The translations under genes were made by a program, and so were the position numbers. A stretch of 16,742 nt of DNA, taken from contig CANLGS010000015.1 of NCBI GenBank assembly GCA_947490035.1, forward strand, positions 1 through 16,742. The letters run 5' to 3'. Under the pieces are notes generated by a model. It was not told the origin of the DNA and ran no database searches. It was given only the letters and a program-made list of their open reading frames with translations. Positions within the stretch are counted from its first letter, which is position 1. The number at the start of each line of letters is the position of its first letter. Source of the DNA: Gemmataceae bacterium (lineage in GTDB: Bacteria; Planctomycetota; Planctomycetia; Gemmatales; Gemmataceae). Below, piece by piece: positions 5,359 through 16,344 of this stretch.

Positions 5359-5763
5359 ATGGGCGAACACAATATCAGCGGCACAGCTCAAATCGAGGTA
5401 TCGGCGCACCACACCCACGAACCGACGGTCGCCCCAGGGGAGACAGTCGAGACACGCGCCGAGCGCATCCTGGCGGGCGACATCCGCCCCGACGACTACC
5501 TCGAAGTGCCGCCGGGGGTGACCGCTCGGGTCGATTGGGAGATCGCGAAATGCGGTGTCGCGGTTACCACCGAGATGCGCCAGTGGATGCTCGACACATA
5601 CGCGCTCCAGTTCCACTGCTCCGGGAACAGGGTCGTCTGCTGGCGAACCGGCAAAGGGGTCATCGTCCTCGGCGTCGGGGAAACTGAAGCGCGAGCGGTG
5701 TTGGCACTCATGTATCCCATCACCCCCGAACGGCACCCGGACATCGCCGTTGAATACCCATGA
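5359..5763 (+). CDS. small GDIRPDDY-motif protein, copy A (partner of retropepsin-like gene)
   Basis: A 134-residue protein with no family I recognise. It has a polar, low-complexity N-terminus (about residues 1-30), then RAERILAGDIRPDDYLEVPP (33-52) and a C-terminal GKGVIVLGVGETEARAVLAL (98-117). The same blocks in the same order occur in the protein at 8337-8771 (RARRIFSGDIRPDDY and GVIVIAVGLERIRAIL), so the two are paralogues. No signal peptide or membrane segment is seen, so it is probably cytosolic. The ATG at 5359 was chosen over 5257 because of the promoter match at 5293-5321; the ribosome site is weak. Its stop overlaps the next start as ATGA (5760-5763), indicating translational coupling with the retropepsin-like gene. 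Function unknown; the coupling suggests the two proteins act together. Confidence 0.7.
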   Translation: MGEHNISGTAQIEVSAHHTHEPTVAPGETVETRAERILAGDIRPDDYLEVPPGVTARVDWEIAKCGVAVTTEMRQWMLDTYALQFHCSGNRVVCWRTGKGVIVLGVGETEARAVLALMYPITPERHPDIAVEYP

Positions 5764-6305
5764 CAGCGCCCGCCCCCTTCCGTTACACCATCCAGTTGTG
5801 GCCGGGAGAGTGTTCGCCGCCGGCGGACCCGCCGGGCACACCTCCTGATCCGCTGGCGATCGAAACGCGGGTCGCAAAGGTGCCGCTGCGCATGATCCGT
5901 CAACCGGACACGTCGAACGAAACGCGAGTGACCGCGCCGGAGTGGTTCGCCATCGACCCCGGCGCCGGGATCACACAACTGAGCCTGGAAGCCGCGCTGC
6001 TCGGCGAGGAACACGGGGGATGGGATCTGAGCGTCGGCCCAAACTGGCGGCGCGTCAAGCGAACCACGGCGCGCGGGACGGATCGGGTGAGGGCACACCC
6101 CGGCTCGATCCGCGTGCTGTTCCCCAACTACGCCGAACCGTTCGAGTTCACCTGCCTGTTCATCGAGAACTGGCCGGTCGGCGTTCCGCCGCTCCTCGGT
6201 CTGCACGACGTTTTGAAGCACGTCCGCATCACCTTCGATAGCACTAAACTGCGCCCGTTCGGGGCCGTCACCTTCGAGCGCTACGACACGACACCTCACG
6301 AGTAA
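5760..6305 (+). CDS. retropepsin-like protein, copy A, with DPG in place of D(S/T)G
   Basis: A 181-residue protein. FAIDPGAGITQLSLEAALL (about residues 63-81) matches the active-site region of clan AA (retropepsin-like) aspartic proteases, where Asp-Ser/Thr-Gly-Ala is usual; here it is D66-P67-G68-A69. The C-terminal PPLLGLHDVLKHVRITFD (143-160) corresponds to the second conserved region, usually LLG..(F/V)L....(V/I)TFD. The paralogue at 8744-9250 keeps DSGAG. Ser/Thr next to the catalytic Asp supports the active-site hydrogen-bond network, so Pro suggests lost or altered activity. This is inference from family structure. The first 35 residues are Pro-rich, and no signal peptide or membrane span is seen. 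It overlaps the upstream gene by 4 nt (ATGA) and ends 5 nt before sthA, so the three are probably one transcript. Confidence 0.7.
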   Translation: MTAPAPFRYTIQLWPGECSPPADPPGTPPDPLAIETRVAKVPLRMIRQPDTSNETRVTAPEWFAIDPGAGITQLSLEAALLGEEHGGWDLSVGPNWRRVKRTTARGTDRVRAHPGSIRVLFPNYAEPFEFTCLFIENWPVGVPPLLGLHDVLKHVRITFDSTKLRPFGAVTFERYDTTPHE

Positions 6306-6310
6306 CACCC

Positions 6311-7753
6311 ATGCCTGCCGCGACCGAGTACGACCTGATCGTGATCGGTGCCGGGCCGGGCGGCGTCGCCGCCGCCGACACCGCGGCACTGCTCGGCAAG
6401 CGCGTCGCCATCGTCGAGCGGCAGGCCGCCGTCGGCGGCGCCGCCGTCAACACCGGCACCATTCCGAGCAAAACGCTCCGCGAGGTCGCGCTCGCCATCG
6501 CCGGCGTCAAGGCCCGGCAGCTCATCGGCGTGGACGTGTCCGTCAGGCACCAAGCCAAGATCGAAGACCTCGTCCGCCACGAGCGCGTGGTGAAGGCGTC
6601 GGAAGCGCACCAGATACGCACCCTCCTCGACCGGTACGGCGTGACCGTCGTCCGGGGCACCGGTAAGTTCCTCGACCCGCACACAGTCCGCGTCGCGCGT
6701 CCGAACCCGCCCGGCGGGTTCCTCGACCTGCGCGCCGAGAAGATCGTCGTCGCCATCGGCTCGTGCCCGGTGCGACCCGCGGTCTTCCCGTTTGAGCACG
6801 CGCGCATCCACGACTCGGACGAACTGCTCTACATCACCACCATCCCGCGGTCGCTCGCCGTGATCGGCGCCGGCGTGATCGGCAGCGAGTACGCGTGCAT
6901 GTTCGCCGCGCTGGGCGTGCGCGTCCACCTGATCGACGGGCGCAACGTGCTGCTCCCGTTCCTCGACCCTGACCTCTCCACCGCGCTCATGCATGCGATG
7001 GAACAACAAGGTATCGTGTTCCACTGGAACGAGCAGGTGGCCGCGTGCAAGGCGCCGCGGTCCGGGGAAATCGAACTGAAGCTCACGTCTGGCAAGGAAC
7101 TGGCGGTCGGGCACCTACTGGTGTGCGCGGGGCGCACCAGTTACGCGGACCGGCTCGTGCCCGAGGCCGCCGGCTTCGGACTCACCTCGCGCGGCCTGAT
7201 CCCGGTGGACGACCACTTCCGCACTACAGTCCCGCACATCTACGCGGTCGGCGACGTGATCGGTTTCCCGGCGCTGGCCAGTACGAGTTCCGAGCAAGGC
7301 CGCGTCGCGGCGTGCCACGCGTTCGGGTCCAACGCGAAGGAGGCGCTGGCGCAGTTCCTCCCGGCCGGCATCTACACCATCCCCGAACTGAGTTCGGTCG
7401 GACTGACGGAACAGCAAGCGCGAGAAAAGGGCATTCCGGTCGTGGTCGGCCGTGCCGACTACGACCAGAACCCGCGCGGCAAGATCATCAACGACAAGAC
7501 CGGGTTCCTGAAGCTCGTATTCGAGCGCGACGAGATGAAACTGCTCGGCGTCCACGTGATCGGCGAGCAGGCCACGGAGTTGATTCACGTCGGGCTGACC
7601 GCGATGATGATGGGAGGAGGGGCAAACCTGTTCCTGGCGACGTGTTTCAACTATCCGACGCTCGGCGACCTGTATAAGTTGGCAACGCACGACGCGATCC
7701 TCAAGCGGTCCGAGTTGCTCGGAAAATCGAATACCGGGCTGAGCCGGTGGTGA
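6311..7753 (+). CDS. sthA: Si-specific soluble NAD(P)+ transhydrogenase
   Basis: This cytosolic FAD enzyme of 480 residues exchanges reducing equivalents between NADPH and NAD+. It has the class I pyridine nucleotide-disulfide oxidoreductase layout: FAD-binding VIGAGPGG (11-18), a TIPSK motif (50-54), NAD(P)-binding VIGAGVIGSEYA (184-195), FAD motif YAVGDVIGFP (311-320) and the dimerisation domain from about residue 355 (YTIPELSSVGLTE). The two redox cysteines of lipoamide dehydrogenases (CxxxxC) are replaced by A45 and T50 in VGGAAVNTGTIPSK, which is the expected signature of the SthA branch and rules out dihydrolipoyl dehydrogenase and glutathione or mercuric reductase. Ending in CFNYPTLGDLYK is also typical. 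It starts 5 nt after the retropepsin-like gene, an unusual partner. The window shows no reason for that linkage beyond a shared promoter. Confidence 0.92.
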   Translation: MPAATEYDLIVIGAGPGGVAAADTAALLGKRVAIVERQAAVGGAAVNTGTIPSKTLREVALAIAGVKARQLIGVDVSVRHQAKIEDLVRHERVVKASEAHQIRTLLDRYGVTVVRGTGKFLDPHTVRVARPNPPGGFLDLRAEKIVVAIGSCPVRPAVFPFEHARIHDSDELLYITTIPRSLAVIGAGVIGSEYACMFAALGVRVHLIDGRNVLLPFLDPDLSTALMHAMEQQGIVFHWNEQVAACKAPRSGEIELKLTSGKELAVGHLLVCAGRTSYADRLVPEAAGFGLTSRGLIPVDDHFRTTVPHIYAVGDVIGFPALASTSSEQGRVAACHAFGSNAKEALAQFLPAGIYTIPELSSVGLTEQQAREKGIPVVVGRADYDQNPRGKIINDKTGFLKLVFERDEMKLLGVHVIGEQATELIHVGLTAMMMGGGANLFLATCFNYPTLGDLYKLATHDAILKRSELLGKSNTGLSRW

Positions 7754-7761
7754 CCTACCGA

Positions 7762-7857
7762 GTGTGCGGTGTGCAGCGGGCAGTGGGCAGAGAAGAAACG
7801 GGAGTACGAGTCTCTGTCTTCTGCTCCTCTGCCCACTGCCTGCTGCACACCGCACAC
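7762..7857. repeat. 31-bp inverted repeat (30/31), large hairpin after sthA
   Basis: Arms at 7762-7792 and 7827-7857 are reverse complements except for one position (7778), with a 34-nt loop. The arm begins GTGTGCGGTGTGCAGC. TTTT follows the second arm (7858-7861), so it could end sthA transcription in the rightward direction. The ribosome site of the next gene (GGAGGG, 7866-7871) comes right after. It could equally be a dispersed palindromic element that has settled in this gap. Confidence 0.75.
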
Positions 7858-7874
7858 TTTTGGCGGAGGGAGCT

Positions 7875-8288
7875 ATGACCGACGACGCCCGCGAGGAAGC
7901 GGAGCGGTTCCGTTGGCTCGAAAGCGAGAAGGCGGGGCACGGCCTGGGCGAGGAGGCCATCCGGCAGTGGGTGACCCTCTACTGGCCGGCGTTCGTCCGC
8001 GGTCGCGCGCTCGAACACCTGAGCGGCAAGCGGTTCTGGCTGGAGATGCCGCGCGCCGAGTTCGGCGTCCTGCTCCGCGAGTTCCCGGACCGGCAGGAGT
8101 TGGTGCGCGAGATCGTGACGCGGCTCGCGGCCGGGGCCGACAACCTGAACATCCTCCAGTGGGCGACGGACGCGGCCGTCGCCATCGACGACGTGTGCAA
8201 CGTCCTCCAGCGGATCGACATCAACGGGCTGCGCGCGCGGTTCCCGCCCCCGGACGACGCCGACCCGCCGCACATCGTCCACGGCTGA
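7875..8288 (+). CDS. hypothetical protein, acidic, helical
   Basis: A 137-residue protein that I do not recognise with certainty. It is rich in Trp and charged residues (WLESEKAGHGLGEEAIRQW, TLYWPAFVRGRALEHLSGK, FWLEMPRAEFGVLL) and appears alpha-helical throughout, with a short Pro/Asp-rich tail (PPPDDADPPH). No signal peptide or membrane span is seen. The start at 7875 has GGAGGGAGCT immediately upstream. It lies between sthA (after the 31-bp inverted repeat) and the second copy of the GDIRPDDY/retropepsin pair, from which it is separated by 48 nt and a candidate promoter. Whether it belongs with that pair is unknown. Confidence 0.7.
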   Translation: MTDDAREEAERFRWLESEKAGHGLGEEAIRQWVTLYWPAFVRGRALEHLSGKRFWLEMPRAEFGVLLREFPDRQELVREIVTRLAAGADNLNILQWATDAAVAIDDVCNVLQRIDINGLRARFPPPDDADPPHIVHG

Positions 8289-8303
8289 CGCCCGCGCCCG
8301 TGT

Positions 8304-8309
8304 TATCAT
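8304..8309 (+). promoter_or_regulatory. putative -10 box for the 8337 gene
   Basis: TATCAT lies 28 nt upstream of the ATG at 8337, in the 48-nt gap after the preceding stop. No good -35 hexamer is seen. GGAGG (8325-8329) is the ribosome site. Confidence 0.28.
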
Positions 8310-8336
8310 GAAGCGGAGCAAAACGGAGGACTCGCG

Positions 8337-8771
8337 ATGTCGCACGAACACGAAACCCTCGACGCCGAACCCGCGAACGCGGTAACGGAACCCGCTCCCA
8401 CGCCGCGAAGCGAACCGGAGCCGGATTTCATCACGCGGGCACGCCGCATCTTCAGCGGTGACATCCGCCCGGATGACTACACACCGGTGCCGCCGGAGGT
8501 GCAAGCGGCAGTCGATAGTTGTCACACGCCCGAACACGCGGCCAAGTTCTGGGTCGCCCGGCAGAACACGCTCAACGACTGGACGCTGTCGTTCCTGTAC
8601 GGCGAGATCGGCCCAGTCTTCTGCCGCGAAACCGAACAGGGCGTCATCGTCATTGCCGTTGGCTTGGAACGGATTCGCGCCATCCTCGACCACTTCCCGC
8701 ACCGAGAACAGCGGACGGGGTTCTCTCACACCCATGCATTCCCATGGCAATCGCCCGGCTTGATGAGATAG
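8337..8771 (+). CDS. small GDIRPDDY-motif protein, copy B (partner of retropepsin-like gene)
   Basis: A 144-residue paralogue of the 5359-5763 product. The N-terminal 30 residues are polar and rich in Glu, Pro and Thr. Then come ITRARRIFSGDIRPDDYTPV (32-51) and EQGVIVIAVGLERIRAIL (100-117), matching copy A in order and spacing. The middle sections (about 60-95) differ strongly apart from a hydrophobic/aromatic pattern. There is no export signal. GGAGG lies 7 nt upstream of the ATG. The last 28 nt overlap the start of the next gene in another frame, so the pair is probably translationally coupled, as in copy A. Function unknown. Confidence 0.72.
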   Translation: MSHEHETLDAEPANAVTEPAPTPRSEPEPDFITRARRIFSGDIRPDDYTPVPPEVQAAVDSCHTPEHAAKFWVARQNTLNDWTLSFLYGEIGPVFCRETEQGVIVIAVGLERIRAILDHFPHREQRTGFSHTHAFPWQSPGLMR

Positions 8772-9250
8772 CGGTACCGCTGAAGAAAACCGCGGCGGCG
8801 TTCCGACCGGGCACGACGCCACCGCTCGAGGCGCGCGTCAAGGTCAACGTGCGCACCCGCGCCGGCGGTACCGAGGAGTTGGAATTCGTCATCGACTCCG
8901 GTGCTGGCGTCACGAGCATTCCTTGGGCGACTGCGGTCAGTTGGGGAATCCCCATCGGGACGACTCGCGTGACCTCAAGTCACACCACGTTTCAGGGACG
9001 TGTTGCGATTGATACTTGGCGACATCAGGTTGAAATCGAGTTCGTTGGTCTTCCGGGCAAGTGGTTCGTGTTCGACTGCCAGTTCCCCGACGTAACGACA
9101 ACCGTTCCGTGCATCCTCGGCATCGGCGGCGATGTACTGCGGCACCTCACCATCGCGCTCGACGGCACCCCGCAACCGCCGCACGCGGATTACGGCTTCG
9201 CCCGCATTACGGTCGTCGATCCTGCACATTCGCTCTCACCTTCGCCTTGA
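8744..9250 (+). CDS. retropepsin-like aspartic protease, copy B, intact DSG motif
   Basis: A 168-residue protein. VIDSGAGVTSIPWATA (about 49-64) carries the clan AA active site D51-S52-G53-A54-G55. The second conserved region is PCILGIGGDVLRHLTIALD (122-140), equivalent to the LG.....L...T.D segment of retropepsin-like proteins. Enzymes of this type work as homodimers, each chain giving one Asp; that is family knowledge and not visible here. Substrate unknown. No signal peptide is seen, so it is probably intracellular. The ATG at 8744 lies inside the end of the upstream gene (28-nt overlap) with no clear ribosome site of its own, consistent with coupling. Several codons in about 8970-9060 end in A or T, less GC-biased than the neighbours. 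It ends 20 nt before rsmH. Confidence 0.75.
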   Translation: MAIARLDEIAVPLKKTAAAFRPGTTPPLEARVKVNVRTRAGGTEELEFVIDSGAGVTSIPWATAVSWGIPIGTTRVTSSHTTFQGRVAIDTWRHQVEIEFVGLPGKWFVFDCQFPDVTTTVPCILGIGGDVLRHLTIALDGTPQPPHADYGFARITVVDPAHSLSPSP

Positions 9251-9270: not shown

Positions 9271-10170
9271 ATGTCCACCGACCGCGTCCCGGTTCACGTG
9301 AGCGTGCTGCCGGCCGAAACGCTCGCCCTGCTCGACCCGCGGCCGGGCGAAACGTGGGTCGATTGCACCGTCGGCGGCGGCGGGCACACGCGAATGCTCG
9401 CCGCGCGCGTCGGACCGACCGGGCGCGTGATCGGGCTGGATCAAGACCCGACCATGCTCGCGCTGGCGCGGGCGCGGTTGGAAGGGTTGCCGGTCGAACT
9501 GGTCCACGCGAACTTCGACCAGTTGGCCGAAGTGTTGACCGCGCGCGGCCTCGACCGCGTGGACGGCGTGTTCGCGGACTTGGGGTTCAGTTCCGACCAG
9601 ATGGGCGAGAAGGCCCGCGGCCTGAGCTTCCGCGACGACGGCCCGCTCGACATGCGGTTGGACCCGACCGCCGGCGCGACGGCCGCCGACTTGGTGAACA
9701 CGATGAGCGAGGCGGGACTCGCGGACGTGTTCTGGGAGTTCGGCGAGGAGAGACACAGTCGCCGAGTGGCGAAGCGCATTGTCGCGCGGCGTGAGGAAAA
9801 GCCGTTCGCGACCACGGGCGACTTCGCGAGCGTGGTGCGGAGTTGCGTGCCGCGGTCGGGAAGCATCGACCCCGCGACGCGCGTGTTCCAGGCGCTGCGG
9901 ATCGCGGTGAACGACGAACTCGGTTCGCTCGACCGTCTACTGGCGATGCTGCCGCGGGCAGTGAGGCCGGGCGGCCGCGCCGGGGTCATCAGCTTCCACT
10001 CGCTCGAAGACCGGCGGGCGAAGCAAGCGTTCCGCGCGGCGGGATTGTGGCGGCAAGTGACGAAGAAGCCGGTCGAAGCCGGCGACGAAGAAACGGCCCG
10101 CAACCCCCGCGCGCGGAGCGCCAAGTTGCGGGTCGCGGTCCGAATCACGCAAGGTCAGCAGGGGGCATGA
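9271..10170 (+). CDS. rsmH: 16S rRNA (cytosine(1402)-N4)-methyltransferase
   Basis: RsmH (MraW) methylates N4 of C1402 in 16S rRNA using S-adenosylmethionine. The 299-residue length is typical. Family motifs are all present: HVSVLPAETLALL, the SAM-binding VDCTVGGGGHTR, GLDQDP, ADLGFSSDQ, GPLDMRLDP, FGEERHSRRVAKRI, FQALRIAVNDEL, ISFHSLEDRR and the C-terminal NPRARSAKLR. The ATG at 9271 fits the usual beginning just before HVPVL/HVSVL; the frame is open further upstream, but that overlaps the protease gene. No strong ribosome site is seen. In many bacteria rsmH starts the division and cell-wall cluster (mraZ-rsmH-ftsL-ftsI). Here no mraZ precedes it and ftsL is not recognisable after it; a LysM membrane protein takes the ftsL position. 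Confidence 0.96.
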   Translation: MSTDRVPVHVSVLPAETLALLDPRPGETWVDCTVGGGGHTRMLAARVGPTGRVIGLDQDPTMLALARARLEGLPVELVHANFDQLAEVLTARGLDRVDGVFADLGFSSDQMGEKARGLSFRDDGPLDMRLDPTAGATAADLVNTMSEAGLADVFWEFGEERHSRRVAKRIVARREEKPFATTGDFASVVRSCVPRSGSIDPATRVFQALRIAVNDELGSLDRLLAMLPRAVRPGGRAGVISFHSLEDRRAKQAFRAAGLWRQVTKKPVEAGDEETARNPRARSAKLRVAVRITQGQQGA

Positions 10171-10203: not shown

Positions 10204-11751
10204 ATGACCGAACCCATCGCCGTTGACGTGCCGGCCAAGCCGTTGTTCTCGCGCTCCGGCCCCGGTCCCACCCAGGGGCCGTCGCCGACACCCGCTCCTG
10301 CCCCGACACCAACCGCGCCGCCAGCGCCCGTGCCGAAGGTCGAGGCGCCCAAACTCGCGCCGATTGCGACCGCGGTGGTGGCCGTGGCGACCACTGCGGC
10401 CACGGGAGCGCCCGCGCCCGTCGCGGCCGGCTTCCTCGCGCAATTCAAGAAGAAGCAACTCGTCGTCGGTGCGGTCGCCGCGCTCAGCCTGTTCGCGGGC
10501 ATCGGCGCGGTGCGCATGATGTTCCCCGCGAAGGACGACGCGCAGCCGCCCGCACCGGTCACGGCCGCGGTCGATGACAAGGTGAAGTTCGCGACACCGC
10601 CGGCCGCGAAGCCGCCCGCGCCTGAAGTGGAAACGCCGCGCACGCTTTCCACGTTGCCGCCGTTGCCGCCGTTGCCGACATTCCCGGCCGCGCCCGTCGG
10701 CGGCCCGCCGCCCGCGATCAACCCGACCGGCATTTACGCGCTTCCGCCGTCCGCAGCGCCGACGATCGCCGTCGAACCGCAACCGGTCGTGCTGCCGCCG
10801 ATTCCCAACTTCACGGCTCCACCCCCGCCGACCGGCGTCGTGCCGGCCGCATTCCCCGCGATGCCGCCCACTCCGCCGGCCGTGGTACCGACACCGCCCG
10901 CGCCGGGTGCCGGGCTTCCGCCGCTGCCCGCGCTCCCGGCCGCGCCGCCAAGCGGACTCGCGCCGCCGTCGGTCGATCTGCCACTGCTTCCGGCACCCGG
11001 TGGCGTTGCCCCGCCCGTCATTCCGAAGGCCGCCGACCCGGTGTTCCCGCCGATCCCCGGCGGGGTTGGTGCTCCTCCGCTCGGCACGCTGCCGCCAGTA
11101 CCTGAAGTGAAACCAGCGTTCCCCGACGTGAAACCGCCAGCGGTGGTTGCGCCGCCGGTCGGCGTCACCCCGCACCCGTTCCCGGTAGGCGTCGGGCCGA
11201 AGACGGACGTGAAGCCGCCGGCGTTCGACCCGCCCGCGCTGGGCACGCCCACGGGGTTCACGAAGCCGGCGGGCGCGTCGGACGCGAAGCCGATCGCGCC
11301 CGAGTTCGCGCCCAAGACGACGTTCGACGTGGACGTTCACGACCCCAAGGCGAACGACACCTACGAAACGATCAGCCTGGAGTTCTACAACGACAAGCGG
11401 TTCGCAACGGCGCTGAAGGCGTTCAACCAGAACCAACCGCTCCAGGGCGGGCGGTACGTCAACGTGCCGCCGATCCACGTGTTGAAGCGGCAGTTCCCGA
11501 CCCAGGCCGGCGGCGCCGTGGTTCCCGTGGGCGCGTCCGGCGCGCCGTCGTCCGACCCGGTGTGGGGCGCCGTGCCGAAGCCGGCCGCGCGGAACACCTT
11601 CACCGTCCCGCAAGGCGGGATGACGCTCCGACAGATCGCGCGCCAGGCGCTGGGCAACGAACAGCGGTGGAGCGACATCTACGACCTGAACCCGCAGATC
11701 ACGAAGCCGTCCGACCTGCTGCCGGCGGGCACCGAGTTGAAACTGCCGTAG
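10204..11751 (+). CDS. proline-rich bitopic membrane protein with C-terminal LysM-like domains
   Basis: A 515-residue protein. Residues 1-80 are Pro/Ala-rich and probably cytoplasmic. FKKKQ (81-85) is followed by one membrane span (about 85-103). A long Pro-rich linker (about 110-365) follows, with recurring short units such as PPLPPLP, VPEVKP and FPDVKPP. A LysM-like domain lies at about 373-429 (DVDVHDPKANDTYETISLEF, then ATALKAFNQNQP), and a second at about 464-515 (FTVPQGGMTLRQIARQAL, IYDLNP, LLPAGTELKLP). LysM domains bind N-acetylglucosamine-containing polymers such as peptidoglycan, so the protein probably links the inner membrane to the cell wall. GAGGT lies 6 nt upstream of the ATG. 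The gene starts 33 nt after rsmH and is probably co-transcribed, occupying the position of ftsL in classical clusters; a division or envelope role is inference. Confidence 0.78.
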   Translation: MTEPIAVDVPAKPLFSRSGPGPTQGPSPTPAPAPTPTAPPAPVPKVEAPKLAPIATAVVAVATTAATGAPAPVAAGFLAQFKKKQLVVGAVAALSLFAGIGAVRMMFPAKDDAQPPAPVTAAVDDKVKFATPPAAKPPAPEVETPRTLSTLPPLPPLPTFPAAPVGGPPPAINPTGIYALPPSAAPTIAVEPQPVVLPPIPNFTAPPPPTGVVPAAFPAMPPTPPAVVPTPPAPGAGLPPLPALPAAPPSGLAPPSVDLPLLPAPGGVAPPVIPKAADPVFPPIPGGVGAPPLGTLPPVPEVKPAFPDVKPPAVVAPPVGVTPHPFPVGVGPKTDVKPPAFDPPALGTPTGFTKPAGASDAKPIAPEFAPKTTFDVDVHDPKANDTYETISLEFYNDKRFATALKAFNQNQPLQGGRYVNVPPIHVLKRQFPTQAGGAVVPVGASGAPSSDPVWGAVPKPAARNTFTVPQGGMTLRQIARQALGNEQRWSDIYDLNPQITKPSDLLPAGTELKLP

Positions 11752-12350: not shown

Positions 12351-14786
12351 TCACGCCCCGTAGTCGATGTCTTCGACGCTCTTGAGCGTGTTGTTGAAGA
12401 TGAACGCGCGGCGGTCCTGCACCTCTTTGCCCATCAGCGTGCGGAACATCTCTTCCGCCTTGAACGCGTCGTTGAGCGTCACGCGCAGCAGCGTGCGGTG
12501 CTGCGGGTCGAGCGTCGTCGCCCACAGTTCCTCCGGGTCCATTTCGCCCAACCCCTTGAACCGCGTCACGGCCATGCCCTTTTCGCCAAGGCGCCGAATC
12601 TCTGTCACTAACTCGCGAAGACTCACGAGGTTCTTCGTGTGGCTGTCGTGTTCGAGCGTGTACCGCACCGGCGGCTCGCGCCCGGCGATGCGCTGAAGCG
12701 GGATCATGTCCGACGTGTCGAATCCCGTGCTTTTCATCTTGGCGAGCGCGCGGTTGAGCGCTTTCAGGTCGTGCCACTCGTCGAGCGTGTAGTCCACGCC
12801 CACGACCGGTTCGTGCTTCAACTGCTCGGTCAACTCGGCCTTGAACGCGGCCACGTCGTCGGCCGTGCGGAACCAGTGTTCCTTGTTCTTCGCGCGCTCC
12901 GAGACGTGGTACGTCGGGAACGCGCCGTCCACCGCGCGCGGCAGCAGCTCTTCGAGCGTCCGCCCGCGGCGCTCCAGCCCGACCACCGCGGTTTCCGCCT
13001 CCGCGAGCGCCGGCAGCAACTTCGTGAGGTCGTCGCCGGTCACCGTGCGCGCCGGTTGGTCCGGCTTGGTGACGTGCAGCGTGGTCGCCTTCAGCCCGCG
13101 GCTTGTGAGTTCGACCACCATCTCTTCGCGAGTCTGCACGAACCGCGTTTCCTTCTTCTGCGTGACCTTGAACAGCGGCGGGCGGGCGACGAACACGTGC
13201 CCGGCTTCGATCAACTTGCGCATCTGACGGAAGAAGAACGTCAACAGCAGCGTGCGGATGTGCTGGCCGTCCACGTCGGCATCGGTGAGGATGATGACCT
13301 TGCCGTACCGCACCTTGCTCACGTCCTCGACGTTGTCGATGTCGATACCCACCGCGCCGATGAGCGCCGCGATTTCGTTGTTCTCCAGCAGCTTCTCGAA
13401 CTTCGCCTTCTCGACGTTCAGCACCTTCCCCTTGAGCGGGAGAATCGCCTGATAGTACCGGTCGCGGCCACTCTCGGCGCTGCCGCCGGCGGAATCGCCT
13501 TCGACCAGGAACAGTTCGTTCTGCATGTGGTCGCGCGAGGTGCAGTCGTAGAGCTTGCCCGGTAGGCCGGCGCCGAGCGCGTTCTTGCGGTTCTTGAGGG
13601 CGTCGCGTGCCTTCTTCGCGGCAAGCCGCAGTTCGGCGGTCAGCGCCACCTTCTGGCAGATCTTCTTCGCCTCCTTCGGGTTCTTCTCCAGGTAGTCCGA
13701 AAGCAACTCGTACATGACGCCGGACACCATGCCCTCGACTTCCGGGCTGGTCAGTTTCACTTTCGTCTGCGACTCGAACCGCGGTTGCGGGTGGCTGATG
13801 TTAATAACCGCGGTTAGCCCCTCGCGGAAGTCGTCGCCGCGCAATTCCATGTCTTGGAAGAAGTTCTCCTTCTTGCCGTAGGCCGTGATCGACCGCGTCA
13901 GCCCGGCGCGAAAGCCGCTCAGGTGCGTGCCGCCGTCCTTGTTGTAAGCGTTGTTGGTGAAACACATCTCCAGCTTGGTTTCGCCGGTGATGTACTGGAG
14001 ACACACCTCGACGGTGACGCCTTCGACCTGCTTGCTGATGTAGACTGACGGGTGTTCGACCGGCTCGTTGCGGTTCAGGAACTCGACGTACTCCGCGATG
14101 CCGCGCTCGGAGTAAAACACCTCGTTCTTGCCGACACGTTCGTCCAAGATGGTGAGCCGCAGCCCCTTGTTGAGGAACGAGATCTGTTGGAACCGGGTGG
14201 CGAGCCGTTCGTAGTCGAACACGAGGTCGCCGAACTTCTCCGGGTCCGGCTTGAACGCGATCGTCGTGCCCCGCTGCCCGGCCGGAGCCGGGCCGAGGTT
14301 CTGTAGCGTGCCCCCCGGCGCGATGTACCCGCGCTCGAACTCCATCTTGTACACGCGGCCGTCGCGCCGGACCTCGGCCGTACACCACTCGGACAGCGCG
14401 TTCATGGCCTTCGCGCCCATGCCGTGCAGCCCGGCCGAGGTCTTGTACGCGTCGTTGTTGAACTTGCCCGACGAGCCGGCGATGGTCAGCGCCTCTTCGA
14501 GCGTGGACTTGCCGGTGTCGGCCTTCGTGCCGACCGGGATGCCGCGGCCGTCGTCGGCGATGGTGATGGAGCCGTCGATGTGGACGACGGTGTTGATGTT
14601 CTTGCAGTGCCCGGCAAGCGCCTCATCGACGGAGTTGTACACCACCTCCCAGACGAGGTGGTGCATGCCCTCGATGTCGGTGTTGCCGATGTACATGCCG
14701 GGCCGGTGCCGGATGTGCGCCGCGTCGCGCAGCGTCTGCACGTTGTCCTCGCCGTACTCGACGATCCCCAGCGTCTCGGTGCTCAT
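12351..14786 (-). CDS. gyrB: DNA gyrase subunit B
   Basis: GyrB is the ATPase subunit of gyrase, which introduces negative supercoils with GyrA. The 811-residue protein has the GHKL ATPase (VWEVVYNSVDEA with N51 and E55; DDGRGIP at 78-84; GLHGMGAKAMNALSEW at 119-134), the transducer domain, and the TOPRIM domain (LFLVEGDSAGGSA near 426-437; LTDADVDGQHIRTLLLT at 500-516). The C-terminal signature FKGLGEMDPEELWATTLDP is also present. Length exceeds the short 640-residue type: an insert follows VFVARPPLFKV (about residue 540) before the final domain, as in E. coli-type long GyrB. The usual GVGxSVVNAL loop reads GMGAKAMNAL. The ATG at 14786 has GAGG about 10 nt upstream. GyrB rather than ParE is favoured by the dnaN-DUF721 neighbourhood. 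No intein. Confidence 0.95.
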   Translation of the reverse strand: MSTETLGIVEYGEDNVQTLRDAAHIRHRPGMYIGNTDIEGMHHLVWEVVYNSVDEALAGHCKNINTVVHIDGSITIADDGRGIPVGTKADTGKSTLEEALTIAGSSGKFNNDAYKTSAGLHGMGAKAMNALSEWCTAEVRRDGRVYKMEFERGYIAPGGTLQNLGPAPAGQRGTTIAFKPDPEKFGDLVFDYERLATRFQQISFLNKGLRLTILDERVGKNEVFYSERGIAEYVEFLNRNEPVEHPSVYISKQVEGVTVEVCLQYITGETKLEMCFTNNAYNKDGGTHLSGFRAGLTRSITAYGKKENFFQDMELRGDDFREGLTAVINISHPQPRFESQTKVKLTSPEVEGMVSGVMYELLSDYLEKNPKEAKKICQKVALTAELRLAAKKARDALKNRKNALGAGLPGKLYDCTSRDHMQNELFLVEGDSAGGSAESGRDRYYQAILPLKGKVLNVEKAKFEKLLENNEIAALIGAVGIDIDNVEDVSKVRYGKVIILTDADVDGQHIRTLLLTFFFRQMRKLIEAGHVFVARPPLFKVTQKKETRFVQTREEMVVELTSRGLKATTLHVTKPDQPARTVTGDDLTKLLPALAEAETAVVGLERRGRTLEELLPRAVDGAFPTYHVSERAKNKEHWFRTADDVAAFKAELTEQLKHEPVVGVDYTLDEWHDLKALNRALAKMKSTGFDTSDMIPLQRIAGREPPVRYTLEHDSHTKNLVSLRELVTEIRRLGEKGMAVTRFKGLGEMDPEELWATTLDPQHRTLLRVTLNDAFKAEEMFRTLMGKEVQDRRAFIFNNTLKSVEDIDYGA

Positions 14787-14814
14787 CGTGTTGGTTTCCT
14801 CTTCTTATGTGTTC

Positions 14815-14879
14815 GTGGCACAGACATTCCTGTCTGTGTCCGCAAAGCTAAAGCGCACAGACAGGAATGTCTGTGCCAC
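14815..14879. repeat. perfect 24-bp inverted repeat with palindromic arms, upstream of gyrB
   Basis: Arms at 14815-14838 and 14856-14879 are exact reverse complements separated by 17 nt. Within each arm CAGACA and TGTCTG form a second palindrome around TTCC (or GGAA). It occupies much of the 108-nt gap between the DUF721 stop and the gyrB start and ends 28 nt before the gyrB ATG, so it would be transcribed in any dnaN-gyrB read-through message. Confidence 0.9.
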
Positions 14880-14894
14880 AAAACCAAAGCAAAT

Positions 14895-15206
14895 TCACCA
14901 CGCGGCGGCGCGGAACTTCAGGTCGGTGAGCGTCACGCCGGGCATCGCGGTGCGGAGTTTGGCGAGCAGCCCGCGCTTGTGGAACTGCGCCAACTCCGAC
15001 ATCAGCACCGAGTTCCGCACAGCGACCTCCATTACGCCGCGCTTCATGCCCAGCACTTGCGTGTCCTTCAGCAGTTCCTCTCCCGCGACGCTGGCCCACG
15101 CCGTTTCGAGCCGCAGCCGGTCGTTCTTCCGCCCCCAACCGCGGGACGTGAACAACTTGCCGAGGATGTCGGCGATCTTCTCCGGGCCGCGGTTGTCGTT
15201 CGCCAT
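14895..15206 (-). CDS. DUF721 domain protein
   Basis: A 103-residue basic protein with the DUF721 pattern: KIADILGKLFTSRGWGRKND near the start, LETAWASVAGEELLKDTQVL in the middle, then MEVAVRNSVLMSELAQFHKR and a C-terminal MPGVTLTDLKFRAA. In actinobacteria a DUF721 gene lies between recF and gyrB (Rv0004 in Mycobacterium tuberculosis), and the same neighbourhood is seen here without recF. The biochemical role is not settled; proposed links are to DNA or RNA binding near the origin. The ATG at 15206 was chosen: GAGG lies 8-9 nt upstream and overlaps the end of dnaN (stop at 15217). A GTG at 15215 would add three residues. The gene is probably co-transcribed with dnaN. Confidence 0.85.
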   Translation of the reverse strand: MANDNRGPEKIADILGKLFTSRGWGRKNDRLRLETAWASVAGEELLKDTQVLGMKRGVMEVAVRNSVLMSELAQFHKRGLLAKLRTAMPGVTLTDLKFRAAAW

Positions 15207-15216
15207 TGGTCGCACC

Positions 15217-16344
15217 TCAGCCCGTGAGCGGCATCACGAGGTACGAATAGTCTTCGCCGCAGTGGAACAGCGCCGCGCGAGTGCCTGTGGACATCTCCAG
15301 CACCACCGTCGGCTCGCCTTCGAGCGCCCGCAGGAACTCCACCAGGTATTGCGGGTCGAACGCGATCTCCGTCTTCGGACCGTCGTACTCCGGTAGCGCC
15401 AGCGTCACCTCGCTCGAACCCGTCTTCGCGCCGCGGGCCTTCATCGTCACCTGACCCGCGTCGAACGTCATGTCGATGCGCATGCTCTCGTCGTCCGTCA
15501 TGATGGCCGCCTGCCGCACGCGCGACAGGAAGCCGTCAACGGGCAGCGACACCCGCTGCGTCGCCTCCTTCTTGGTCTTCGCGATGATCTCCCGGTACGG
15601 CGGGAACTTCCCCTGCACGAGCGACGTGTAGATCATCGCCCGCTCGGTCTGGAACAGCGCGTCGTTGGCACGCAGTCCGACCCGCACCAGTTCCTGATCG
15701 CTCGTCAGGTTCTTTTCCAGAAGTGAAACGGCCTTCAGCGGTACAAGGTGAATCGACTTCACGGTGTCGGCCACGCCGAACACGGCCGCCGGGCCGTGGC
15801 ACACCGCGAGCCGCTTCGTGTCGGTCGCGACCAGCCGCGCGTCCTTGCCTTCCGCTTCCCACAGCACGCCCGTCAGGGAGAACTTCGCGGTGGTGTCCTT
15901 CTTGTCCGCGGAGAACGACGTGCGCCGAATCATCGTCTTGAGCGTGCCGGCGGTGATCTCGTGGTAGCGCCCGCCGTCGTCGAACGACGGGATATCGGGG
16001 AACTCGTTCACGTCGAGACTCGGCATCTCGAACCGTCCGCCGTTCATCTTCGCGACGATGGCTTCGTTCCCCGCGTCCAGGTTGATGTCGGGGTCGTTGC
16101 TCTCGCGTAAGATTTTCACCAGTTCGGTGATGGGCAGGATGCACGACCCGGCCCGTGCTACGGTGATGCCGCGCAGCTCGTAGCGGATGCCCACTTCCAT
16201 GTCGTAAGCGACGAGCGTGAGGGCGTCGTCCTGTGCGACCGCCTTGATGTTGCTCAACACCGGCTTCGTCGTTCGAGCCGCGACTGCCGCTGATACCAGT
16301 TGGCACGCGGTCAGTAGGCTGTCTCGCTGGCACGTTATCTTCAT
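15217..16344 (-). CDS. dnaN: DNA polymerase III beta subunit (sliding clamp)
   Basis: DnaN forms the dimeric ring that tethers the replicase to DNA. The 375-residue length is normal for the three-domain clamp. Recognisable parts are MKITCQRDSLLTACQLVSAA at the N-terminus, KPVLSNIKA, FPDIPSFDD, the domain 2 segment VLWEAEGKDARLVATDTKRLA, GKFPPYREII, and the C-terminal FDPQYLVEFLRAL followed by YLVMPLTG, matching the usual FNxxYLxdxL and VMPx end. AAGGAGG lies 7 nt upstream of the ATG. The gene is read leftward away from the putative origin at 16345-16742, with a DUF721 gene 10 nt downstream and gyrB next. dnaA would be expected beyond the right edge, in either orientation. Confidence 0.97.
   Translation of the reverse strand: MKITCQRDSLLTACQLVSAAVAARTTKPVLSNIKAVAQDDALTLVAYDMEVGIRYELRGITVARAGSCILPITELVKILRESNDPDINLDAGNEAIVAKMNGGRFEMPSLDVNEFPDIPSFDDGGRYHEITAGTLKTMIRRTSFSADKKDTTAKFSLTGVLWEAEGKDARLVATDTKRLAVCHGPAAVFGVADTVKSIHLVPLKAVSLLEKNLTSDQELVRVGLRANDALFQTERAMIYTSLVQGKFPPYREIIAKTKKEATQRVSLPVDGFLSRVRQAAIMTDDESMRIDMTFDAGQVTMKARGAKTGSSEVTLALPEYDGPKTEIAFDPQYLVEFLRALEGEPTVVLEMSTGTRAALFHCGEDYSYLVMPLTG

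Follow-up and report, generated by a model that had tools for sequence, protein, structure and literature searches.

A small partner protein encoded together with a retropepsin-like protease in Gemmataceae and beyond: a putative regulator-protease module

In a 16,742-nucleotide (nt) stretch of a Gemmataceae bacterium genome (contig CANLGS010000015.1 of assembly GCA_947490035.1; hereafter the window), two gene pairs each encode a small partner protein followed by a retropepsin-like aspartic protease. We propose, with a probability of roughly 0.45, that each pair is a soluble and dispensable module of regulator and protease, whose partner protein would serve as a separately made inhibitory pro-domain, much as in a toxin-antitoxin system. 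The partner appears to be a regulatory protein that is small, evolves fast and has a DUF5678-like hairpin at its C terminus; the protease is probably translationally coupled to it. Comparison of genome sequences brings out the pairing itself, its gene order and coupling, fusions of both domains in one open reading frame (ORF), joint loss of the two genes and their occurrence in two phyla. A first-pass annotation, made from the letters of the window, had suggested a conserved unit of a small partner and a single-domain clan AA protease; this unit is supported by our analysis, with a pairing that extends much further than the family seen in the window. The annotation knew of no described system with this pairing, and none turned up in the literature searched, which was mostly open access and mentions DUF5678 in one paper.

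The two pairs lie where the first-pass annotation had placed them, with an overlap of 4 nt (ATGA) in pair 1 and of 28 nt in pair 2. The suspected paralogy of both members was confirmed: the partners match each other with 42% identity across the matched part, and the proteases with an E value of 6e-8 in a two-sequence comparison (28% identity over 114 amino acids). All four genes are coding, as they have protein-level homologues in other genomes. The source assembly (G000; G and L numbers are our handles for genomes and loci) has an estimated completeness of 68%. The features of the two pairs are as follows.

5359 to 5763, + strand: partner 1, 134 amino acids, homologue of partner 2 (E 7.4e-12)
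5476 to 5499, + strand: GDIRPDDY motif of partner 1
5602 to 5679, + strand: core of the C-terminal hairpin of partner 1, a DUF5678-like region (relation by profile-profile comparison)
5760 to 6305, + strand: retropepsin-like protein 1 (protease 1), 181 amino acids, homologue of protease 2 (family profile E 1.3e-49)
5955 to 5963, + strand: active-site motif DPG of protease 1, with Pro replacing Ser/Thr
8337 to 8771, + strand: partner 2, 144 amino acids, homologue of partner 1
8457 to 8480, + strand: GDIRPDDY motif of partner 2
8586 to 8663, + strand: core of the C-terminal hairpin of partner 2, a DUF5678-like region (relation by profile-profile comparison)
8744 to 9250, + strand: retropepsin-like protease 2, 168 amino acids (matches to PF13975 and PF13650, both below cut-off)
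8894 to 8902, + strand: active-site motif DSG of protease 2
9127 to 9250, + strand: stretch of protease 2 retained in the related genome G013, from which the remainder of pair 2 is gone

Both partners indeed share the motifs GDIRPDDY and GVIV(L/I).VG. The first of these had been used to name the partner; it is present, but the conserved core of the partners is instead the C-terminal hairpin around G..V.....GV.VLAVG. Among the motifs proposed for the proteases, D(P/S)GAG holds (DPGAG in pair 1 and DSGAG in pair 2), while LG....D.L.H was slightly off, the actual sequences at this place being LGIGGDVLRH and LGLHDVLKH.

The search for partner homologues took in 95 family genomes and, at the level of the class, 397 genomes, the class-level counts being lower bounds since at most 10 candidates per genome were scored. 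Among the 26 distinct loci tabulated, which include both window loci, 24 carry a retropepsin-like ORF directly downstream, and L011 and L077 do not; partner homologues that mostly lack a neighboring protease gene, a finding that the first-pass annotation had named as fatal to its proposal, are thus not what we observe. The protease profiles were built partly from these same loci, so that the Pfam results given below serve as the independent check. The protease ORF of L076 runs off its contig, and those of L010 and L073 are frame-disrupted. Outside the 26 loci are six weaker partner matches (E 5.6e-5 to 0.0097), of which L054 adjoins a protease and L043 to L046 and L052 do not, as well as L003 from the genome of the window itself, a match no better than chance (E 0.0186) and with no D.GA ORF listed beside it. 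The converse search of the 95 family genomes, with a profile built from paired proteases, gave 19 rows corresponding to 18 loci: 15 with a window-type partner, two with a partner of another subfamily (L024 and L025) and one lying about 107 nt from a contig end (L031). No clear case of an orphan protease of the window subfamily was seen.

The spread of the module is patchy, with a partner match in 14 of the 95 family genomes at E ≤0.01 (weak matches included); a second family, probably Isosphaeraceae to judge from a named record, has one at E ≤1e-4 in 5 of 45 genomes. The partner gene comes first, and the spacing to the protease gene ranges from -28 to +12 nt across 17 tabulated pairs. The N-terminal parts of the partners vary in length and sequence, and the C-terminal hairpin is kept; a Pfam scan of 15 partners recognized no DNA-binding domain in any of them and no effector domain in most. 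Several loci show arrangements of their own. G030 (L025) holds three tandem partner-protease pairs within about 2 kb, and in G014 (L007:808-1953) the partner forms the end of a 382-amino-acid open frame whose first part has no Pfam match. By eye, an ORF resembling an HNH nuclease lies just upstream of the partner in G088 (L005, reverse complement 447-1274), and in an Isosphaeraceae metagenome-assembled genome (L077/L098) the protease-less partner is followed by two small ORFs resembling an antitoxin and a MazF-like toxin.

Co-inheritance of partner and protease is supported by a Mantel test over all 19 pairs (r 0.58, reached by none of 5000 shuffles), and agreement among the 13 Gemmataceae pairs is modest (r 0.45, reached by 120 of 5000 shuffles). 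A specific one-to-one co-evolution of partner and protease was not borne out, re-pairing within genomes being uninformative, and the trees built for either protein, with 19 sequences each, resolve poorly. The modest agreement within Gemmataceae and the uninformative re-pairing would suit a shared operon that merely serves joint expression, with no physical or regulatory link between the two proteins, the more so as their interaction is read from sequence. We nevertheless consider such an arrangement very improbable, given that the adjacency is kept across families and in another phylum and that two fusions, tandem arrays of whole pairs and joint loss are observed.

Profile searches could have placed the second genes outside clan AA; instead, clan AA profiles match them as a family, which places them with the retropepsin-like aspartic proteases. 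For protease 2 the matches are to PF13975 (E 7.5e-5) and PF13650 (E 5.8e-4), each below the curated cut-off, as are several of the clan AA matches in Pfam; protease 1 taken singly gave no match in the Pfam scan. Each of the two models matches seven of nine family members at E ≤1, and PF13650 matches all four further proteases at E ≤0.1. Compared with structures in the PDB, the family profile matches DDI1 (E 0.0055), the ApRick protease (E 0.019) and the HTLV-1 protease (E 0.021). A D[ST]G motif is found in 15 of the 19 paired proteases, protease 2 among them, and DPG in the other four, including protease 1. A proline follows the catalytic aspartate in several lineages (window 5760-6305; L063, L064, L073, L074, L076; L087, with the sequence DPAA). 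After the catalytic half comes a hydrophobic-hydrophobic-glycine motif (ILGI in protease 2, LLGL in protease 1) in a region conserved in the alignments. The paired protease is single-domain and presumably homodimeric. Both proteins of the module are probably soluble, and those of the window show no membrane segment: no 19-residue stretch in the 19 pairs exceeds a mean hydropathy of 1.6, the maximum in the paired proteases being 1.44.

The wider pattern emerged from DUF5678 (PF18929), a family of small proteins with a "G[KRQ][YW]VA...VVA.G" hairpin, most of whose genes found here stand directly before a retropepsin-like ORF or form one frame with it. A search of 148 genomes of the class with this model gave 19 loci, 16 of which have such an ORF directly downstream or fused; 12 of these were recognized by our own profiles (five being profile seeds) and four by the DTG motif alone (L086, L091, L095, L097), and L088, L089 and L096 have none. 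When ten of the downstream or fused proteins were scanned with Pfam, L081, L082, L087 and L097 gave an aspartic-protease match (E ≤0.05) and six gave none. In L082 and L094 (G020) the two domains form a single ORF, DUF5678 first and the protease second, and the junction in L094 contains no methionine.

For a reciprocal view, we took 36 PF13650 matches in open frames of up to 262 amino acids from 11 planctomycete genomes, each of which has 4 to 21 PF13650 matches in all. None of the 36 had an earlier locus; matches already having loci, the pairs known by then and a short G091 frame were left out. Against 1055 six-frame ORFs, a DUF5678 profile to which none of the 36 loci had contributed matched, at E ≤1, 17 ORFs just upstream of the protease (16 loci) and a single ORF elsewhere, which is followed, 44 nt after its end, by a further PF13650 match of that contig. 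After iteration, an upstream ORF was found at 18 of the 36 loci (15 at E <0.005), together with 7 ORFs elsewhere at E ≤1. The loci where no partner was detected include a TIGR03698-like group (L139, E 4.8e-8, below cut-off). For the small ORF that precedes the L142 protease, an antitoxin-like reading was set aside, as neither Pfam nor NCBIfam gave a match.

The partners of the window differ from DUF5678 in that they fail its Pfam model and have a longer N-terminal part with GDIRPDDY; none of 15 partner sequences matches the model at E ≤10. Profile-profile comparison nevertheless points to a relation. With hhalign, 17 DUF5678 sequences aligned to the partner hairpin at P 0.0013 (probability 18%) and P 0.0023 (13%), and an enlarged profile of 29 sequences at P 6.3e-5 (probability 64%). 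Searched against 1064 ORFs, this enlarged profile ranked four window-type partners best, with weak E values of 0.012 to 1.2 and with neither window partner among the matches listed. In the reverse direction, the three best ORFs that the window-partner profile found among the 36 loci were the upstream partners of L140, L143 and L145 (E 0.008 to 0.06). The window partner is thus likely, though not proven, to be a distant relative of DUF5678.

To judge from gene order and homology, the same arrangement is found in two phyla, Planctomycetota and Cyanobacteriota. With a planctomycete partner of another subfamily (L169) as the query, eight cyanobacterial plasmid records were matched; one DUF5678 protein used in the same kind of plasmid search matched none. 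With the pair from Nostoc MS1 as queries, the partner matched 9 records and the protease 10, the two being neighbors in the 8 records common to both. Several of these come from near-identical strains, so that perhaps five cases are independent. A 4-nt overlap joins partner and protease in seven of the eight, the remaining record lacking it. The ninth partner record, from Oscillatoria, combines an intact partner with a protease whose frame breaks off right behind the active-site aspartate. Some plasmid pairs adjoin toxin-antitoxin genes, including ParD/RelE-family genes, and the pair on Nostoc plasmid L204 is flanked by the BREX-1 genes pglZ and pglX. Partner 2 had no match among phage records.

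Within the genus of the window, the fate of the pairs can be followed at two chromosomal sites, which have the following flanking genes, all outside the module.

6311 to 7753, + strand: pyridine nucleotide-disulphide oxidoreductase gene (PF07992, PF02852), between the pairs
7875 to 8288, + strand: ORF conserved in relatives, between the pairs
9271 to 10170, + strand: rsmH/mraW (PF01795), downstream of pair 2 and present in 19 of 19 genus genomes

A pair precedes rsmH in four of the 19 genomes (G000, G014, G015 and G020, the window's own genome counted); of the 15 without it, 12 have the oxidoreductase gene upstream of rsmH at a distance of no more than 1.5 kb, and in 3 neither was found. G013 keeps the last 39 residues of protease 2 (window 9127-9250) as part of a stretch of 85% identity that begins where the conserved ORF ends, and G025 keeps about 12 codons of the same gene with a different breakpoint; site 1 is empty in both. 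These remnants argue that pair 2 was ancestral there and that its two genes were deleted together. An insertion of pair 2 by transposition is ruled out by the 3' end of the protease gene retained in G013. In several relatives, too, the ORF at 7875-8288 ("RWLESE..G..LGEEAIRQW") has the oxidoreductase gene on one side and rsmH on the other; Pfam and NCBIfam scans gave no match for it. Further along the window, a 515-amino-acid proline-rich ORF (10204-11751) has an end that weakly matches Phage_tail_X (E 0.007, below cut-off) and that we presume may be LysM-like, and the long ORFs on the minus strand at 12351-16344 are presumably gyrB and dnaN, which they resemble by eye.

Both of these chromosomal sites are also occupied by pairs in G020, of the same genus, and here the partner domain at site 1 forms the C terminus of an extracytoplasmic function (ECF) sigma factor (Sigma70_r2, Sigma70_r4), with a DTG protease directly downstream. 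A protein identical to this fusion is present in a protein collection under a sigma-70 name, on two contigs, the longest of 44 kb. It is tempting to speculate that the partner is a dedicated substrate, whose signal-triggered cleavage would free an N-terminal part in active form, in the manner of SpoIIGA and pro-sigma-E; the product of the fused form would then be a free ECF sigma factor. SpoIIGA is, according to excerpts of PMC13174948, an aspartic protease cotranscribed with the gene of its sigma-factor substrate in Bacillus subtilis, an organization that the G020 fusion and its protease recall, and the variable N-terminal parts attached to a constant hairpin would fit this idea as well. Yet the same source gives SpoIIGA five N-terminal transmembrane domains, whereas the window proteins have neither a membrane segment nor a sigma domain. 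Moreover, no second sigma-partner fusion was seen among the partners found, most partners lack a recognized effector domain, the one-ORF fusions fit a pro-domain equally well, and the DPG proteases may not cut at all. Cleavage of the partner as a substrate is therefore, in our view, unlikely.

The order, coupling, fusion and joint loss of the genes together suggest a physical partnership of the two proteins. In the mechanism that we favor, the hairpin domain would bind its own protease as a pro-domain in trans and hold it inactive; the variable N-terminal part, in one instance an ECF sigma factor, would couple release of the protease to an output; and loss, cleavage or titration of the partner would free the protease, in the way that a toxin-antitoxin pair releases its toxin. 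Partners without a protease occur at five loci (L011, L077, L088, L089, L096), besides the one next to a broken protease in Oscillatoria, and the window subfamily offers no clear orphan protease. This asymmetry suits a protective partner and so favors an inhibitor or trans-acting pro-domain. Alternatively, the partner might act positively, as a subunit that adapts or assembles the protease and so aids its dimerization or targeting without any inhibition. Tight coupling and one-ORF fusions would be expected of such a subunit too, and the characterized bacterial A2-family peptidases involve other activating protein factors, as far as excerpts of PMC11957791 tell; partners that have lost their protease, or sit beside a broken one, are less expected of a pure helper, and we regard this alternative as quite unlikely.

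Several observations weigh against the inhibitory pro-domain. When partners and proteases were re-paired within genomes, the true pairing ranked 21 of 96. Half of the 36 small retropepsins have no detected partner, and two Nostoc plasmids match part of the protease query (59% and 47% of it) and show no match to the partner. The DPG motif in 4 of 19 paired proteases suggests that some may be inactive, which is a poor fit to a pure toxin. At site 2 the module appears to be inherited and lost, and is not visibly mobile. Seven proteins compared with the PADLOC defense models gave just two matches, with E values of 0.024 and 0.032, neither of which assigns them to a defense system. Finally, any binding, cleavage or toxicity is so far a prediction from genome comparison.

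Among known systems, type II toxin-antitoxin modules and staphopain-staphostatin operons consist of two small coupled genes, one of them for an inhibitor-like partner. The module resembles them in its small coupled genes, its patchy occurrence, its dispensability and its presence on plasmids as well, albeit as a system known from its genes; the type II layout, with the small partner first and the genes overlapping or nearly touching, recurs in the 17 tabulated pairs. It differs from type II modules in that Pfam recognized no DNA-binding domain in the 15 partners scanned; one relative forms a fusion with an ECF sigma factor. A term search of the accessible text on TASmania (PMC6504116) found no mention of aspartic protease. 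Few bacterial retropepsin-like proteases have been characterized, as stated in excerpts of PMC12239564. RimABK and RloABC of Pseudomonas likewise place a retropepsin-like protease in an operon with functional partners; in the portions of PMC11957791 and PMC12239564 consulted, however, these partners are an ATP-grasp protein and a cyclic-di-GMP phosphodiesterase or inactive transglutaminase membrane protein, with no small hairpin protein, and RloA carries a signal peptide, unlike the module described here. An ATP-grasp gene, as in the RimB and RloA systems, was absent from the nine window proteins scanned, the flanks of both pairs included.

More broadly, and more doubtfully, the pairs may represent a widespread and undescribed class of two-gene modules for conflict or regulation. 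In such a class, a retropepsin-like protease ("toxin"), itself soluble, would be held in check in trans by a DUF5678-like protein serving as its inhibitory pro-domain ("antitoxin"). The modules would be borne by chromosomes as well as plasmids in two phyla or more, and some partners would have been turned into sigma factors, giving the protease direct control of transcription. A dedicated small partner of many retropepsin-like genes provides a handle on these enzymes, the partner's effect on its protease being directly testable, and the uncharacterized domain DUF5678 acquires a defined context. If the partner is a substrate, the sigma-fused form would be a soluble parallel to the processing of sporulation sigma factors; if it restrains the protease, the pairs would form a toxin-antitoxin-like class built on the fold of the HIV protease.

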